Positions 15,067 through 39,604 of a stretch of DNA of 64,000 nt are shown here, piece by piece. A program made the position numbers and the translations under genes. The DNA comes from Verrucomicrobiaceae bacterium (GTDB lineage Bacteria; Verrucomicrobiota; Verrucomicrobiia; Verrucomicrobiales; Verrucomicrobiaceae): positions 39,254-103,253 of the forward strand of contig JAIXOU010000030.1 of NCBI GenBank assembly GCA_027486585.1, given 5' to 3'. The notes beneath the pieces were generated by a model. That model saw nothing but the letters and a program-made list of their open reading frames with translations, was not told the DNA's origin and made no database searches. Position 1 is the first letter of the stretch. Every line of letters begins with the position of its first letter.

Positions 15067-18000
15067 TTACTTCGTCTTGAACTCGCGACTGGTCGTTAGG
15101 GCGATGATGACCTCGCGAATCGCAAAATCCTTCGCCTTCGCACGCTTCACGATGTCTTCGGCTAGCGCGATGTCGGTGAAGCCATACGGCCTGCCGAGCC
15201 CATACTCGATGAGCGCTTCCGTGAAGCCTTGAGCAAAGTTTTCGCTCTTGGCGGCGATTTGGTCGCGGAGGTCGAAGTAGGTTTGGAAGGCGGGGCCGTG
15301 GTGGAATTGGCCGGCGGGGTCGATGGGCCAGTCTTTTTTGGTTTTGGGGTCCTGATCGACGTCGCGCCATTTGCCGGCGGCGTTGAAGTTTTCGAGGCCA
15401 AAGCCAATGGGGTCGATCTTACGATGGCACTGGAGGCACTGGGGCTCTTCTTGATGGGCGAGGAGGCGTTCACGCGGGCTGATGGGTTTGCCGGCTAGGC
15501 GGTCGAGCTGCGGCACATTCGGCGGGGCGGGCGGTGGTGGATTGTGGAGGAGTTTGCGCAGCACCCAGGCACCGCGCTCGACGGGACTGGTGCGCTCGCC
15601 GTTGCTGCCCATGGCGAGGATGGCGGCCATGCCGAGCAGGCCACCGCGTGGGGAATTGGCGGGGAGTTTGACCTTTTGAAACGCATCGCCGCTGATGCCT
15701 TCGATGCCGTAGTAGGTGGCGAGCAGGCCGTTGACGTGGATTTCGTCGCTCTTGAGCAGTTTCGTGAGGCTGCCGTTGTTTCGCAGCAGGTGGGCGAAGG
15801 TTTCATACACTTCGCGGCGTGCGGCGGCCTTGGCGCTTTCGTCAAAGTCCCGAAACTGCTTGGTGTCGAACTGGAAGAAGTCTAGCCGGTCCATGCTGAG
15901 CCATTGATGCACGAAGCCACTGACAAACTCGTCGGCCTTCGGGCTGGCGATCATGCGATCCACCTCGCGAGCGATGAGGTCAGGGTTCGTGATATCTACT
16001 TTGAGAAGCTGTTCATCCGGTGGAGCGCTCCAGAGGAAATAGGACAGGCGTGAGGCGAGTTCGGGAGCTGATAGCGATCTCTGGCTTTCATTTTTTACCC
16101 CTAACTTTTTACCAGCCCCTTCTTTTGGTAAAAGATTTGGGGTAAAAAATTGGGGACCTGTTTCCTGAAGATACAAAAAGCCCGGCGAGGCCAGGATGAC
16201 GCTCAAAGGCTCGCGGATGGCCTTATCGAAGCTCTCACCAGCTTTCAGGCGTGTTGCGTGCAAAACCGTCAATTTGTCCAAAAAGGCGGCGGAAGGCTTT
16301 TTACCGCGAAAGGCTCGTTCGGCGAAGGTTTCGAGCACTTGGCGAGCATTCATCTCACCAGCGGCGAGCACGGGTGGGACGCTTGTTTTGGCATTCGCGG
16401 GCGCGAGCGGGCCTTCCCACTCCACCCAATCGATCCACAACGCGGAGGGAGGTCCCACGCCGGTGGCTTTCTGCGCAGCGGTGTAGAGTTCGTGATCGAG
16501 CTTCACATCCCGCTTCTCGCGCAGCACAAAGGTTCGCGGACCATCGGAGGCGAGGCTCACCGGCACCTCAATGATCTGCGGTGCATCGGTGGTGCCGCTG
16601 ATTTGGAACGTTTGCATTAGCGTGAAGTCTTCATCGCCCGCCTTACGACTGCCGAGCGCGACGAAGTGCCGCTCCTTCGGCGTGCCCTTCACCGCGCCAA
16701 CGCGGAAGCGCAGCTTGTAATCGCCCGGCTCGGCCTTCTCGACCTCATGCTTCGTCTTTAGCCAGCCCGAAGGCTGATCCGGTGGCAGCGTGATGACCTC
16801 TTCCTTGTGGACGTTGTAGAGGGTCAAATACGCGCCGTTCTTGGTGAGCGGATCATTCAGGTATCGCTCAAAACTCGGCCCATGCTGCTCAAAGCTACGG
16901 ATTCGAAACTTCGCCTCCTGCTCGTCCGGAATGCCCTTCTGCGGCTGCTTGGTCTCCATGAACTTCTTCGCCGCCTCGTAGCCGCCTTTGAAGTAGCCCT
17001 TGTAAGTGCCGCCGACCATCGCGTTCGCATGCAACTCGACCTCGCGACGTTCTTTGATCGTCTTCGTCAAAGCAGGCGCACTCGCCACCTCAATCCAGTC
17101 AATCCACAACGCGAACTCAGGCCCGACGCCGTTGCGCTTCAGCGCTTCATTGAAGACTTCACGCGCGGCGTCCTCGGATTGGTAGCTGCCTTTTTCCTGG
17201 AAGAAAAAGCCACGTCCGTTCGTGGGCGAAAACTTCAGCGGAATCTCAAGCAACTGCGGTTTCTCCATCGTGCCTGTGACCTGATGACTGCTCACGATGG
17301 CACGTACGCCCGAGTCGTGATGCGAACCAAACTCCACGAAGTGCCGCGACGCCGTTGTGTTCTTCGTCACCGCGATGCGCACTCGCACGACGTAATCGCC
17401 TGCAGGCCAATCGCCGGGAAGACGGAACGCCTGATACGGATTCACATGCACATCCTCGATTGTGAGAAACGCGCCTGACTTCGTGGCCGGATGCTCCACA
17501 TAAGCGCGATGATGTGGCACATAGTGAAGCCAGTTGCCGCGGCCCAGCCTCTCCGCCTCCACGTCATCCACGAAGCCAAACGTCTTCGGTGCCGGCGCAC
17601 CCACGATGCGCTGCCACCGCGAATGAAGATGCGTCGCATCGTTCGGCTTCTCCGCGCGGATCTTTGCGACCATCTTAGCATTCTCCGGATTCTGCGCTGC
17701 TGCTTCCAGCGCCGCCATCCACTTCTCGTAGCGCTGATGGGCATCCACACGATCCTCAAGCGACTTGGCAATGCGTGCATTCTTTTCCTCCGCCTCGACG
17801 TGCATGAGCCGCGGCTTCTCAGTCGTTGGCACAACGAACCGCGCGAAATGCTCATCCAGCCCCTGGCGCCCGAGCGCAAGGTATTGCTCAAACTGATCCG
17901 ACGACATGAAAAGCGACGAACCCACCGTGTCGAATGTCCCCGCGCCACCATCGGCAGGCAGTTCGTTCACACGCAGATCTACGCCGAGCAGATCGCGGAT

Positions 18001-18390
18001 CGTGTTCTTGTATTCACGCCGGTTCAGCCGCCGCATCGTGATCTTGCCACCGCTGTCGCTCAGCACCGCCCGCGCCGTCACGAGCATGCGCGAGAGGTCA
18101 TCGAGGAAATCCGTCTTCGTCGCCGCATCCGGCTGCTTTTCGTTCTCCGGCGGCATTTCGCCCGAGTTGATGGAGTTGAGCACTTTTTGCCAAAAATCGG
18201 CCTTTTCGACCGAATCGAGCGTGAACGCGATGTCATCGAGCCGAACCTTGCCTTTTTGCTTCTCGGCATTGTGACAGGTGAGGCAGTTGTCTTTGAGAAA
18301 GGCGCGATGCTTGGCGTCGAGCGAGATCTGGGGTGGCTCGGCGAGGAGGGCGAGAGGAGCGAAAAGAAGCGCAGTGTAATAGCGGAGCAT
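15067..18390 (-). CDS. DUF1592 family protein (DUF1587/1592/1588/1585 architecture) with cytochrome-type CxxCH motifs
   Basis: CLTCHNAEKQKGK near N-terminus, [36 protein letters not shown] near C-terminus. Confidence 0.9.
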   Translation of the reverse strand: MLRYYTALLFAPLALLAEPPQISLDAKHRAFLKDNCLTCHNAEKQKGKVRLDDIAFTLDSVEKADFWQKVLNSINSGEMPPENEKQPDAATKTDFLDDLSRMLVTARAVLSDSGGKITMRRLNRREYKNTIRDLLGVDLRVNELPADGGAGTFDTVGSSLFMSSDQFEQYLALGRQGLDEHFARFVVPTTEKPRLMHVEAEEKNARIAKSLEDRVDAHQRYEKWMAALEAAAQNPENAKMVAKIRAEKPNDATHLHSRWQRIVGAPAPKTFGFVDDVEAERLGRGNWLHYVPHHRAYVEHPATKSGAFLTIEDVHVNPYQAFRLPGDWPAGDYVVRVRIAVTKNTTASRHFVEFGSHHDSGVRAIVSSHQVTGTMEKPQLLEIPLKFSPTNGRGFFFQEKGSYQSEDAAREVFNEALKRNGVGPEFALWIDWIEVASAPALTKTIKERREVELHANAMVGGTYKGYFKGGYEAAKKFMETKQPQKGIPDEQEAKFRIRSFEQHGPSFERYLNDPLTKNGAYLTLYNVHKEEVITLPPDQPSGWLKTKHEVEKAEPGDYKLRFRVGAVKGTPKERHFVALGSRKAGDEDFTLMQTFQISGTTDAPQIIEVPVSLASDGPRTFVLREKRDVKLDHELYTAAQKATGVGPPSALWIDWVEWEGPLAPANAKTSVPPVLAAGEMNARQVLETFAERAFRGKKPSAAFLDKLTVLHATRLKAGESFDKAIREPLSVILASPGFLYLQETGPQFFTPNLLPKEGAGKKLGVKNESQRSLSAPELASRLSYFLWSAPPDEQLLKVDITNPDLIAREVDRMIASPKADEFVSGFVHQWLSMDRLDFFQFDTKQFRDFDESAKAAARREVYETFAHLLRNNGSLTKLLKSDEIHVNGLLATYYGIEGISGDAFQKVKLPANSPRGGLLGMAAILAMGSNGERTSPVERGAWVLRKLLHNPPPPAPPNVPQLDRLAGKPISPRERLLAHQEEPQCLQCHRKIDPIGFGLENFNAAGKWRDVDQDPKTKKDWPIDPAGQFHHGPAFQTYFDLRDQIAAKSENFAQGFTEALIEYGLGRPYGFTDIALAEDIVKRAKAKDFAIREVIIALTTSREFKTK
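16090..16150. repeat. palindromic element of GGTAAAAGATTTGGGGTAAAAGAT family inside the DUF1592 CDS, in frame
   Basis: ATTTTTTACCCCTAACTTTTTACC (16090-16113) pairs 21/24 with GGTAAAAGATTTGGGGTAAAAAAT (16127-16150); translated as FFTPNLLPKEGAGKKLGVKN, absent from paralogs. Confidence 0.85.
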
Positions 18391-18399
18391 TCTTGGGCT

Positions 18400-18463
18400 G
18401 GTAAAAGATTTGGGGTAAAAGATGGGGGACTGATTCTGAATCTTTTACCCCCAATCTTTTACC
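18400..18463. repeat. intergenic palindromic element, GGTAAAAGATTTGGGGTAAAAGAT family
   Basis: GGTAAAAGATTTGGGGTAAAAGAT (18400-18423) pairs 23/24 with ATCTTTTACCCCCAATCTTTTACC (18440-18463). Confidence 0.92.
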
Positions 18464-18475
18464 ATAAGGCATGGG

Positions 18476-19267
18476 CTACTTTAGCGTGGTGAAGTGGATG
18501 GTGGTCTGTGTGATGTTGATCCAGTGAATGGCTTTGAGGGCCGTGTGCTTGAGAAGCTTTCTTGCCTCGTCTTCAAAGTTGTCCAAACGCTCCTGCATGC
18601 CGGTGATCTTGAAGGCCACATCAGGAGCCAAGAGACGCATGCGCTGATCGGCAAGGTGGCCCTTCTTCCCAAAAACCGGCACCGGCAGAAGCACCTTGTC
18701 CTCACCACCGAGGAAGTGGGTGATGGCTTCCTCATACAAGGCGATCTCCAAGCCGGCACCCCAATCGGAGATCAATGCCCCGACGATGTCCCGCAGGCGG
18801 GATGCGTCGGCCATTTGAGCATGCCAACGATGATCCACAATGATCGGATTTTTCAGCTCACAGAGCCTCGCGGGGCAGTTCACAAACTCCTGTCCGATGC
18901 TTTCGGGTCGCACGTTGATGACTTTGCCGTGAGCCAGATCGAGCAAGAGCAGGTAGTTGAGCGTCTGCCCCCGGTGTCGGGCATGAATCGCGTCGGCGGC
19001 TTTGAATTCAAACAGTCCGCTGGAATTGACTAGAACATCGACAAAGTAGCTCTTGGCGAAGCTGCCGTGTGAGACGACGATCTCGACTTCGAGCATCACC
19101 CCGCTCATCCGGTCCGCGAGTGCCTTCTTGTAGATGAGTTCGTCGAAGAAGCGTCCGAACTCATTGTGAATGTCGATGATATGCCCGACCACCTCGCTGG
19201 CAAGCAGCTTGAACTCAGCCTGCGAGATACGCTTGGTAACGATGGGGTAATGAATCGGCATGGGCAA
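18476..19267 (-). CDS. GxxExxY family protein (PD-(D/E)XK nuclease-like fold) with C-terminal extension
   Basis: VVGHIIDIHNEFGRFFDELIYKKALADRM and LFEFKAADAIHARHRGQTLNYLLLLDLAHGKVINV match the family pattern as remembered. Confidence 0.75.
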   Translation of the reverse strand: MPMPIHYPIVTKRISQAEFKLLASEVVGHIIDIHNEFGRFFDELIYKKALADRMSGVMLEVEIVVSHGSFAKSYFVDVLVNSSGLFEFKAADAIHARHRGQTLNYLLLLDLAHGKVINVRPESIGQEFVNCPARLCELKNPIIVDHRWHAQMADASRLRDIVGALISDWGAGLEIALYEEAITHFLGGEDKVLLPVPVFGKKGHLADQRMRLLAPDVAFKITGMQERLDNFEDEARKLLKHTALKAIHWINITQTTIHFTTLK

Positions 19268-19283
19268 AAAATCCGTTTCTGAA

Positions 19284-19364
19284 ATCTTTTACCCCGAATC
19301 TTTTACCAGCAAAACCGAGCTAGTGAACGGGGCGATGGCTGGTAAAAGATTTGGGGTAAAAGAT
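19284..19364. repeat. intergenic palindromic element, GGTAAAAGATTTGGGGTAAAAGAT family
   Basis: ATCTTTTACCCCGAATCTTTTACC (19284-19307) pairs 23/24 with GGTAAAAGATTTGGGGTAAAAGAT (19341-19364). Confidence 0.92.
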
Positions 19365-19386: not shown

Positions 19387-20670
19387 TTAAGCGATGAGTT
19401 CCTTCACCACGCCCGTGCTGTCGCCGTGGCGTTCGGCTTGGATGCCGAGGCCGTGGAGCAGGGTGAGCCACACGTTGCACAGCGGCGTGTCTTTGGGCAG
19501 GACGAGGTGGTGGCCGAGTTTGAGGTTCGCGGCTCCGCCGGTGAGGATGGTGGGGCAGTTGTTAAGGAAGTGAACGGAGCTGATGTTGCTGCCGTAGCCG
19601 ACGATGACGTTGTCGAACAGGCTGGTACCAGCGGCGTCTTTGGTAGCCTTGAGCTTGTCGATGAACTTCGCGAACATCGCGCTCTGGGTTTCATCGCGTT
19701 TCTGGGAGAACTCCATGCGGTCGCCCTGGGAGCGCTCGTAGTGGCTGAGGTCGTGGCCGGTGTAGGGCACGCCGATGTCTTTCAAGACCGAGTTCACCGG
19801 CTGGCGATACGTCATCACGCGCGTAGTGTCGGTCTGCATCGCGGCGATCATGAGATCATACATGAGCTGCACTTCCTCACGGCCGCCGGGCTTTTCGTGC
19901 GGCTCGGCAAGCGGTGGCTTGGCCTTTGGCACGGCCAGCCATTGCGCGTCCTTGCTCAGCCGCGTCTCGATGTCGCGGATGCTTTGCGCGTATTCGTCGA
20001 GCTTGTCGGTATCGTCTTTCGAAAGGCCGCGCTTCACGCGCCGGAGGTCGCCGGTGAGGAGGTCGAGCACGCTTCGCTTCTGCGTCAGCATCGCCTCGCG
20101 CTCGGCGAGCGGCGCATCCTCGGTGGAGAAGAGCCGGTGAAACACCTGCACGGGATGATCGATCCCCGCGACAGGCTTTCCACGTTGATCCCAGGCGAGC
20201 GAGAGGCCCGGCCCGTGGCCCTGGTCCTTGGCGTCGGGCGTGCCGAGTTGCAGCGAGGCAAAGCGTGTGTCCTTGCCGAGATGTGCCGCGGCGACCTGAT
20301 CAACGCTGACGCTGTTGCAAAAGCTCTGCCCCGGCTGCGAGTAGCGGTTCGCGCCCGTGAGCCAGAAGGTGCTGCCCCAGTGCGCTTCGTTGCTGAACTT
20401 GTTCGAGCAGCCCTGCACGACGGTGAAGTCCTTCTGATGCCTTGCCAACGGTGCCAGCCCAGGCGGCAGCTGGTAGTCCACGCCTGTTTGCTTCACATCG
20501 GGAAACCACGTCTCCTTTGTCACGCCCCAACCGAAGGCGAGGAAGATCATGCGTTTCGGTGGCAACGCGGCTGGAGCAGCCGAGGCGAAGCGACGAAAGC
20601 CAAGCGACTCCAGAAACGGCAGCGCGATGCACGCCGAGGTGCTGCGGAGGAAGTGGCGGCGGGTTTTCAT
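19387..20670 (-). CDS. DUF1552 domain-containing secreted protein
   Basis: MKTRRHFLRSTSACIALPFLESLGF leader; colinear with 7047 and 29051 paralogs. Confidence 0.9.
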   Translation of the reverse strand: MKTRRHFLRSTSACIALPFLESLGFRRFASAAPAALPPKRMIFLAFGWGVTKETWFPDVKQTGVDYQLPPGLAPLARHQKDFTVVQGCSNKFSNEAHWGSTFWLTGANRYSQPGQSFCNSVSVDQVAAAHLGKDTRFASLQLGTPDAKDQGHGPGLSLAWDQRGKPVAGIDHPVQVFHRLFSTEDAPLAEREAMLTQKRSVLDLLTGDLRRVKRGLSKDDTDKLDEYAQSIRDIETRLSKDAQWLAVPKAKPPLAEPHEKPGGREEVQLMYDLMIAAMQTDTTRVMTYRQPVNSVLKDIGVPYTGHDLSHYERSQGDRMEFSQKRDETQSAMFAKFIDKLKATKDAAGTSLFDNVIVGYGSNISSVHFLNNCPTILTGGAANLKLGHHLVLPKDTPLCNVWLTLLHGLGIQAERHGDSTGVVKELIA

Positions 20671-38197: not shown

Positions 38198-39604
38198 TTA
38201 CTTTTTGCGCTTCTTCTCGCCTTTGGCCTTGGCAGGCGGAGTCCAGTCGGCAGGCGAGGGCGTGGCGACTTTGAGCGCTGCGGTGTCGCCGGTTTGCTGC
38301 ATTTCTTTTTCGAGGGCGGTGGTGAGTTCGGCGACTTTGGTGGTGAACTCGGGCTTGTCGGCGAGATTGTTGATTTCAAAGGGGTCAGCTTCCAGATCGT
38401 AGAGTTGGGTGCGGTCCACCTGCGGGTAGCGAATGAGCTTCCAGCGGCCATCGGTGAAGGCGCGTTGAACGTTGCGGTAGGCGAACATCAGTTGGCTGCG
38501 TGCGGCTTTTGTTGAGTCGTAAAGCGTGGCGCTGAAGTCGATGCCGTCGCTGGTCTTGGGGCCGGCGACGGCACAGAGTTTGCCGAGCGTGGGCAGCACA
38601 TCGAAAAGGTAGCACATAGCATCGGAGCGTTTGTTTTCCGCGATGCCTGGACCGGCGATGACGAGCGGCACACGCATCGAGTGTTCATAGACGTTTTGTT
38701 TGCCGATCAGGCCATGGCTACCGCGGGCGACGCCGCTGTCGGCTGAGAAGACAATGATGGTGTTCTTTGCATGTGGCGAGGCTTCCAGCGCAGCGAGCAC
38801 GCGACCGATCTGCGCGTCGAGAAAGGAAATGTAGCGATAGTACTCGGCGAGGAAACTGCGCACGTTTTCCTCTGTGCGTGGCCAGGGTAGGAGTTGCTCG
38901 TCGCGGATGGACATCTCGCCATTGTTGAAGGGATGCTGCGGCAGGAAATTCGGCGGCAGTGGGATTTGGTCGGGTGTGTAGCGAATGGGAAAGTCGTCTG
39001 GCACAATGTGCGGATCATGTGGCCCATCAAAGGGCACATAGGCGAAGAAGGGACCACTGGATTGATCATGGATGAAGTGGATCGCCTGATCGGCGAAGAC
39101 TTCGCAGGCGTGCTTGGTGCTCGGTTTGGCCGGACCGACCTTGCCATCCACCACGTTGCTCAATTTGGCCTGCATGGGATTTGTCATGCCGCCGGTGAAC
39201 ATGGAGCGTGCGATCTGAAACACACGGGGCAGCGAGTTGTTGCCGTTATGCCACTTACCGCTGGCAAAGGTGGTGTAGCCAGCTTTCGCGAAGGATTCGG
39301 GCCACGTCTCGTTGCGCATGAGCTTCTCATCGATGTGAAACAGGTTCTGTCCCGAGAGCAGCATGGCGCGTGATGGCACACAGGTGGCTCCTCCCATGCC
39401 GCCCTGCATGTAAGCTCGGCTGAACGCGACGCCGCGTTGGGTGAGGCGATCAAGATTCGGCGTCTTGATCACCGGATTGCCCAGCGCGGCGATGGTGTCC
39501 GCGCGTTGATCATCGGCGAAGAAGAAGAGAATGTTGGGTTTGGAGTTGAGTTCGGCACTGGCGAGTGATGCGATTCCGCAGAGTATGATAAGGAGATGTT
39601 TCAT
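38198..39604 (-). CDS. sulfatase
   Basis: PNILFFFADDQRADTIAALGN; CVPSRAMLLSGQN sulfatase signature. Confidence 0.95.
   Translation of the reverse strand: MKHLLIILCGIASLASAELNSKPNILFFFADDQRADTIAALGNPVIKTPNLDRLTQRGVAFSRAYMQGGMGGATCVPSRAMLLSGQNLFHIDEKLMRNETWPESFAKAGYTTFASGKWHNGNNSLPRVFQIARSMFTGGMTNPMQAKLSNVVDGKVGPAKPSTKHACEVFADQAIHFIHDQSSGPFFAYVPFDGPHDPHIVPDDFPIRYTPDQIPLPPNFLPQHPFNNGEMSIRDEQLLPWPRTEENVRSFLAEYYRYISFLDAQIGRVLAALEASPHAKNTIIVFSADSGVARGSHGLIGKQNVYEHSMRVPLVIAGPGIAENKRSDAMCYLFDVLPTLGKLCAVAGPKTSDGIDFSATLYDSTKAARSQLMFAYRNVQRAFTDGRWKLIRYPQVDRTQLYDLEADPFEINNLADKPEFTTKVAELTTALEKEMQQTGDTAALKVATPSPADWTPPAKAKGEKKRKK

Follow-up and report, generated by a model that had tools for sequence, protein, structure and literature searches.

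A GxxExxY nuclease-like gene enclosed by copies of a palindromic repeat raises the question whether the gene and the repeat together form a mobile system. The original prediction for this locus had proposed that the gene is the autonomous partner and that copies of the repeat lacking the gene are its non-autonomous derivatives. The locus was analysed in the window (the whole 64-kb stretch of DNA under study), in the genome to which it belongs, and in related genomes.

A two-domain nuclease-like gene and its repeats in the window

In a profile search, the open reading frame at 18476-19267 on the minus strand matched PDDEXK_3 (PF13366, E 6e-15) and the GxxExxY family TIGR04256 (E 3.5e-14), with scores of 56 bits and 53.2 that lie above the respective cut-offs of 22 and 35. 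PF13366 is the sole family matched by the cassette gene, and no HUH, Y1 or DDE transposase domain is present. The start is most likely the conserved ATG at 19261 (MPI...), giving a protein of 261 aa; the TTG at 19267 is an alternative that would give 263 aa. As predicted, elements of one repeat family enclose this gene on both sides, and the unit lies between a DUF1552 gene and a PSCyt1/DUF1592 gene (Table 1). A role as a defence gene was rejected, since the window protein had no match in PADLOC, where two relatives gave nothing beyond weak Cas4-like ones.

Table 1 Coordinates in the window of the cassette, its repeat elements and the neighbouring host genes
Feature	Position	Strand	Evidence
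Two-domain GxxExxY / PDDEXK_3 nuclease-like gene	18476..19261	-	PF13366, TIGR04256, invariant residues, AF2 model
N-terminal PD-(D/E)XK half, ~residues 1-145	18827..19261	-	Alignment, secondary structure, Foldseek to 4ic1
C-terminal half, ~residues 146-261, second fold copy	18479..18826	-	Alignment, model
Downstream element: two inverted arms, each of 2 x ~11-nt units in tandem	18400..18463		24-mer search, folding
Element upstream of the gene, inverted pair, reversed arm order	19284..19364		24-mer search, folding
Gene-less element, in-frame inside the PSCyt1/DUF1592 CDS	16090..16150		24-mer search
PSCyt1/DUF1587/DUF1592/DUF1588/DUF1585 gene, downstream host neighbour of the cassette	15067..18390	-	Profile search
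DUF1552 (HXXSHH) gene, upstream host neighbour of the cassette	19387..20670	-	Profile search

The N-terminal half carries the catalytic motif D75...E85xK87...Q99xxxY103, in the motif order of RecB-like PD-(D/E)XK nucleases. Residues E41, D75, E85, K87 and Q99 are invariant in 69 aligned sequences and Y103 is nearly so, and no cysteine occurs among the invariant or nearly invariant columns of this alignment. In the AlphaFold (AF2) model of the window protein (mean pLDDT 96.1, pTM 0.90), the order helix-helix-three strands-helix-two strands occurs twice. A conserved D/ExK is absent from the C-terminal half, in which a GxxExxY-like motif recurs (D166-G-G168-L-E-L-Y176), and PF13366 matches each half separately in G107 and several other relatives. 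The nearest fold found by Foldseek was that of Cas4 SSO0001 (4ic1, E 1.7e-4); a sequence search for a relative with a solved structure found none. The presence of two predicted folds and one active site in a single chain suggests, by inference from the model, a nickase that would act on a two-part site.

When the 64 kb were searched for the 24-mer of the repeat with up to 3 mismatches, 5 arms were found versus 0.00 expected by chance. The downstream element consists of arms 18400-18423 (+, 0 mismatches) and 18440-18463 (-, 1 mismatch), the upstream element of arms 19284-19307 (-, 1 mismatch) and 19341-19364 (+, 0 mismatches), and the remaining arm, 16127-16150 (+, 1 mismatch), lies inside the PSCyt1/DUF1592 coding sequence together with a sixth, more diverged copy, 16090-16113 (-). 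The inverted 24-mer pairs described in the original prediction, and its third, gene-less copy within the adjacent DUF1592 gene, were thereby confirmed. Two ~11-nt units in tandem make up each arm, and single strands of all three elements fold as long hairpins (z -8.5, -9.2 and -5.2 against shuffles for 18400-18463, 19284-19364 and 16090-16150, respectively). A further tandem-unit match at 38940-38965 without inverted partner is probably due to chance. A known RNA family was rejected for the elements, the best Rfam matches being far below the gathering score; these were microRNA models, which fit any hairpin.

The opposite arm orientation noted for the two flanking elements holds for 19284-19364 in the window but not as a general rule, relatives having GGTAAA...ACC at that place. 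Given this orientation in relatives, and the two tandem elements upstream of the gene at locus L122, the window upstream pair probably joins halves of two neighbouring elements, which remains an inference. In the whole genome the 24-mer is rare: besides the window copies, it was found at two places on contig C84, at one on C113 and, weakly, at one on C88. The seven other PF13366 genes of the genome lack the exact 24-mer.

Bracketing and co-diversification across the family

A scan of 84,980 genomes yielded 80 loci of the two-domain PD-(D/E)XK family (PF13366/TIGR04256), from Verrucomicrobiota, Planctomycetota, Kiritimatiellota and one Acidobacteria MAG; the titles under which MAGs are deposited are not always reliable. 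The repeat itself is present in 27 of 96 relatives, and the PF13366 genes that lie between its copies in G003, G008 and G044 all belong to the same long subfamily. Members without GGTAAAA brackets carry brackets of the same build, such as GACAAAAAGATGACAGACAAAAAAAT, GGCAAAAAGATGAGTAGGCAGAAAAAT, GACAAAAAGATTGGAGACAAAAATAT, GGCAAAGGAATAAAGGAGCAATGGAAT and others. Every clade has its own unit sequence, and the GGTAAAA 24-mer was therefore rejected as the only relevant repeat.

To score bracketing, the upstream flank of each locus was aligned to the reverse complement of its downstream flank and compared with 50 shuffles, and the alignment was better than all 50 in 73 of 78 loci. With genus genomes added and duplicates removed, 85 of 91 distinct members were bracketed by inverted repeats, versus 5 of the 150 neighbouring long genes that served as control; a score of at least 16 was reached by 76/91 family members and 1/150 neighbour genes. 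As the shuffles preserve nothing beyond mononucleotide content, more weight as controls falls to the neighbour genes and the mismatched pairs. For the positive control, RAYT-like genes of these genomes that have classical GC-rich palindromes, 18 of 41 reached a score of at least 16. In 34/85 cassettes the gene has a single arm on each side; in the other 51/85 at least one side bears a complete element. The original prediction had expected the 24-mer to be placed non-randomly with respect to GxxExxY genes. For the family this was borne out by the bracketing counts; the exact 24-mer brackets only 1 of 8 GxxExxY genes in the genome, a count unfavourable on its own, because the other members have other unit sequences. 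We hold with high confidence that the association of gene and repeat is established at the level of sequence.

Short one-domain GxxExxY genes had been chosen as a negative control. Among relatives, 28 of 38 distinct short genes were themselves bracketed by tandem-unit repeats, and in twelve genomes of other groups 23 of 28 genes (short and long mixed) were bracketed. The arms of the short genes are tandem units, for example CGCAAAGACGCAAAGGACGCTAAG, CACAGAGGCACAGAG, ATCCGCGTCTATCTGCGTGATCTGCG and AACCACGGAATACACAGAATACACGGAA. Bracketed short-gene loci include L009, L069, L083, L087, L088, L413, L426, L436 and L438.

The unit consensus GRYARNN(N)RAAT had 454 matches in the flanks versus 72 in shuffled flanks; its middle positions vary by clade, and the units match within one cassette. 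Upstream and downstream arms of the same cassette aligned with a median score of 24.5, and ends of different cassettes with 9.0. Across 85 cassettes, protein identity correlated with element similarity (Mantel r 0.604; best of 999 permutations 0.079), and a correlation of r 0.42 was obtained for pairs with less than 65% identity. In 62/85 cassettes an end was closer to the opposite end of its own cassette than to its counterpart in the nearest relative with 35-80% identity, and therefore both ends change together. These comparisons of aligned proteins and flanks show that the unit sequence and the GxxExxY protein diversify together.

The genes next to the cassettes at the 80 loci are enriched for PSCyt1, DUF1553, DUF1501, DUF1552 and sulfatase genes; unrelated neighbours, such as DNA ligase, acetate kinase and GTP cyclohydrolase genes, are also seen. 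The enrichment for PSCyt1/DUF1501/DUF1552/sulfatase could reflect a function in the host, which counts against a mobile system.

Occupied and empty sites, gene-less copies and alternative explanations

Five genomes (G000, G003, G008, G032 and G033) have the window cassette in orthologous form. Empty sites between the DUF1552 and PSCyt1/DUF1592 genes, which the original prediction suggested looking for, were found in G001, G002, G023 and G046, where the junction holds a short spacer only (18 nt in G002). G038 was rejected as the nearest empty-site donor: its DUF1552 gene is 93-94% identical, but a different gene follows. At the same junction, G036, G037 and G040 have gene-less elements of the GGCARRAGAAT/GACARRAGAAT type, and G044 has a GGACAGAGGAAT-type cassette in the opposite orientation, whose protein is 29% identical. 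Judging from the genomes compared, this junction is independently occupied in different species, and sites of this kind were shown to contain, depending on the species, nothing, a gene-less element or a gene-bearing element. A further palindromic tandem repeat, of the GGAGTGATGGAGTCATGGAGT type, was observed at the DUF1552/PSCyt1 junction in G007 (L262) and G014 (L258).

Gene-less elements also occur within genes. Contig C107 has one within a DUF1592-type coding gene, which is also found, with changed arms, in G033 and G038; it is absent from eight homologous genes with uninterrupted coding sequence, in eight genomes (G001, G002, G008, G023, G033 in its second copy, G036, G037 and G044). The in-frame element of the window is common to the orthologues L121, L122 and L127 and is thus old. 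At the orthologous position L124:4600-4860, the GGTAAAA element is replaced by a different short palindrome, CTTGAGCTTTAGCTCAAG...GGGCTAAAGCCC. The site within this coding sequence suggests a place that tolerates or attracts palindromes. At L120:1344-1480, the downstream element of the cassette and the beginning of the PSCyt1 gene overlap, and the element appears to supply that gene's signal peptide (MKDKKMTDKNMGIRIKTLILTHFFVCHLFVFSSED): read by eye, the lysine-rich start comes from one arm and the hydrophobic stretch from the other. Two near-identical GACAAAAGAAT-type elements stand in tandem, 165 bp apart, at L381:1-600 (G038:C31), indicating local duplication of gene-less copies.

One alternative, which we consider unlikely, has the GxxExxY protein bind the repeats as regulatory sites or as hairpins in RNA, for autoregulation or mRNA processing, the gene-less copies being its regulon and not the product of transposition. 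The position of the elements, directly beside start and stop codons and closely packed between genes of one direction, their strong hairpins, the pairing that orthologous elements retain despite arm changes, and the enrichment of the neighbours for one operon class would all be expected of such sites. It is harder to reconcile with in-frame gene-less elements that interrupt coding sequences and are missing from orthologues, with a single junction that holds unrelated element types, with or without a gene and in either orientation according to species, and with the unrelated nature of the neighbours outside the enriched class.

Gene-less copies were counted by pattern search. For type A (GGTAAAA), the own cassette was removed and the six genus genomes with a type-A gene were compared with 42 others; copies were higher in genomes with the gene (p 5e-4). 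For type C (GACARRAGAAT), the top two places among 48 genomes, with totals of 34 and 15, go to the two that have a type-C gene (p 4e-3). Both tests ignore phylogeny, and G001 is an exception, having 36 GGTAAAA-type copies, the highest number of the genus, with no cognate type-A gene found; its absence may be due to loss or to an incomplete assembly, or another nuclease may be in use. Copies without a cognate gene also occur in G021, G023 and G024, and the rule that copies exist only where the gene is was rejected on these four genomes. The copy numbers of the types are largely independent of each other.

The abundance of copies in G001 without a cognate gene, together with 14 Y1_Tnp matches in the window genome, could point to another enzyme, for example a RAYT/Y1 transposase, as the one that spreads the repeats, the nuclease gene being a passenger. 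We find this quite improbable, as the repeats co-diversify with the GxxExxY protein and as other genes do not share the bracket at scores of at least 16 (the single neighbour noted above excepted). Tandem units were found at 0 of 42 Y1/RAYT loci in the studied genomes, and the Y1 genes that are bracketed carry GC-rich palindromes of a different kind. RAYT was rejected as the main mobiliser on this count; the Y1/RAYT repeat population of these genomes is independent of the GxxExxY elements, and an obvious RAYT/transposase accounting for the repeat family, on which the original prediction would have fallen, was not encountered in these genomes. Y1/RAYT-like genes flanked by long GC-rich palindromic clusters were seen at L095, L096, L111, L116, L117 and L118.

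We also give little credence to a homing or maintenance nuclease that cuts the empty site, repair then copying the cassette across, with the repeats as homology or protection arms and the gene-less pairs as deletion remnants. The nuclease fold, the arm-gene-arm layout of part of the cassettes (34/85) and the repeated occupation of one junction are compatible with it, but gene-less copies are more numerous than genes and lie at unrelated sites, and no common sequence was apparent by eye at the insertion sites. Finally, that ordinary intergenic palindromes fell by chance on both sides of the gene, for which only the local clustering of elements in several genomes could speak, is refuted by bracketing with different sequences in 85/91 members from several phyla.

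Movement of the gene itself is slow. Of the cassette pairs whose proteins are at least 90% identical and whose two flanks could be compared, 8 agree on both sides, 3 agree on one side and none differs on both, which implies little movement. Different contexts dominate among cassette pairs below 70% protein identity. The cassettes are thus mostly inherited vertically, with no recent gene jumps seen among the pairs with at least 90% identity. At least six copies are decayed cassettes with stops or frameshifts. No target-site duplication was apparent by eye between filled and empty sites, in species that are 15-30% diverged, and no excision product was seen.

Proposed mechanism and relation to known systems

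We judge it probable, without being certain, that the gene and the palindromic repeats form a two-part mobile system with the nuclease as its agent, movement by the nuclease being inferred. Its designation as the autonomous partner is supported by the observed bracketing, the co-diversification, the gene-less copies, the filled and empty sites with their independent insertions, and a PD-(D/E)XK fold with catalytic residues. Binding and cutting of the units by the GxxExxY protein, and its role as the cause of repeat movement, are inference only, and no activity of the protein was seen. In the proposed mechanism, the cassette of repeat, nuclease gene and repeat would be the gene-bearing form and the gene-less inverted pairs its non-autonomous copies. 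The nuclease would recognise the ~11-nt units, as duplex or hairpin, and its single active half would nick or trim DNA, allowing the element to be copied or pasted and to land at intergenic junctions and at tolerant spots within genes. Such movement would be slow, with vertical inheritance in recent times and changes of place over longer ones, while unit sequence and protein would diversify together.

The little-studied GxxExxY family has the appearance of a slow mobile element, of a kind not previously described, in several bacterial phyla. Evenly poised, in our assessment, is the wider proposition that all GxxExxY/PDDEXK_3 genes, a common family of 'unknown' genes in environmental bacteria, represent a distinct class of mobile elements in its gene-bearing form, without HUH, DDE or recombinase enzymes. 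This class would have as ends inverted arrays of 2-3 tandem 8-12-nt units, and as non-autonomous copies moved by the PD-(D/E)XK enzyme the numerous short palindromic repeats of these genomes, of the GGTAAAAGAT, GACAGAAGAAT, CGCAAAGACGCAAAG, CACAGAGGCACAGAG and CACGGAATACACGG types. If true, this would be a new mobile-element class built on a PD-(D/E)XK nuclease, would account for short palindromic repeat families across several phyla, and would supply many natural pairs of protein and target sequence for learning sequence specificity. Many genome annotations include GxxExxY proteins with no function assigned, and these proteins are now tied to matched DNA; the matched substrate of each gene can be read from its own flanks, which makes the question testable. 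In literature searches that did not extend to subscription journals and bioRxiv, we found no report linking the GxxExxY family to repeats and no occurrence of six repeat strings, the name GxxExxY appearing in two papers that the search did not show to concern repeats; the priority of this link is not proven.

Within the TIGR04256/PF13366 family, the window protein scores above both cut-offs and keeps the active-site motif, and it differs in belonging to a two-domain subfamily of 261-265 aa. With Cas4 and RecB-like nucleases it has in common the fold (SSO0001, 4ic1) and the D...ExK...QxxxY motif order. Unlike Cas4, in which four cysteines hold a 4Fe-4S cluster, it lacks invariant cysteines for an Fe-S cluster and has a second, degenerate half, and CRISPR-associated genes are not among the top families of immediate GxxExxY neighbours. 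The palindromic elements of Rickettsia are palindromes that lie in-frame in protein-coding genes; the GxxExxY elements differ from them in having a partner gene with the same repeat ends and tandem-unit arms. Gene-bearing and gene-less forms with shared ends are also known from IS200/IS605-type elements and MITEs, whereas the cassette has no HUH transposase and no target-site duplication was seen in the comparisons made here.

In the RAYT/REPIN system, hairpin repeats persist as a population maintained by a gene that is inherited vertically (PMC8049555), and REP arms carry a GTAG/CGTC tag (PMC3733652). The GxxExxY system is not a member of it: its enzyme is of the PD-(D/E)XK type and not HUH/Y1, its A-rich arms, built of ~11-nt units in tandem, lack the GTAG/CGTC tag (PMC3733652), and its genomes usually hold several unrelated repeat types. 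It resembles REP/REPIN and RAYT in the gene-less inverted-pair hairpins spread, here by inference, by a gene that is flanked with its own repeat type, in the mostly vertical inheritance with repeat and gene evolving together, and perhaps in the higher number of copies in gene carriers (for the REPIN side, PMC8049555), a trend that here is without correction for phylogeny and has G001 as an exception. On the present analysis, the best reading is a RAYT/REPIN-like partnership built on an unrelated nuclease that, by inference, moves the repeats.
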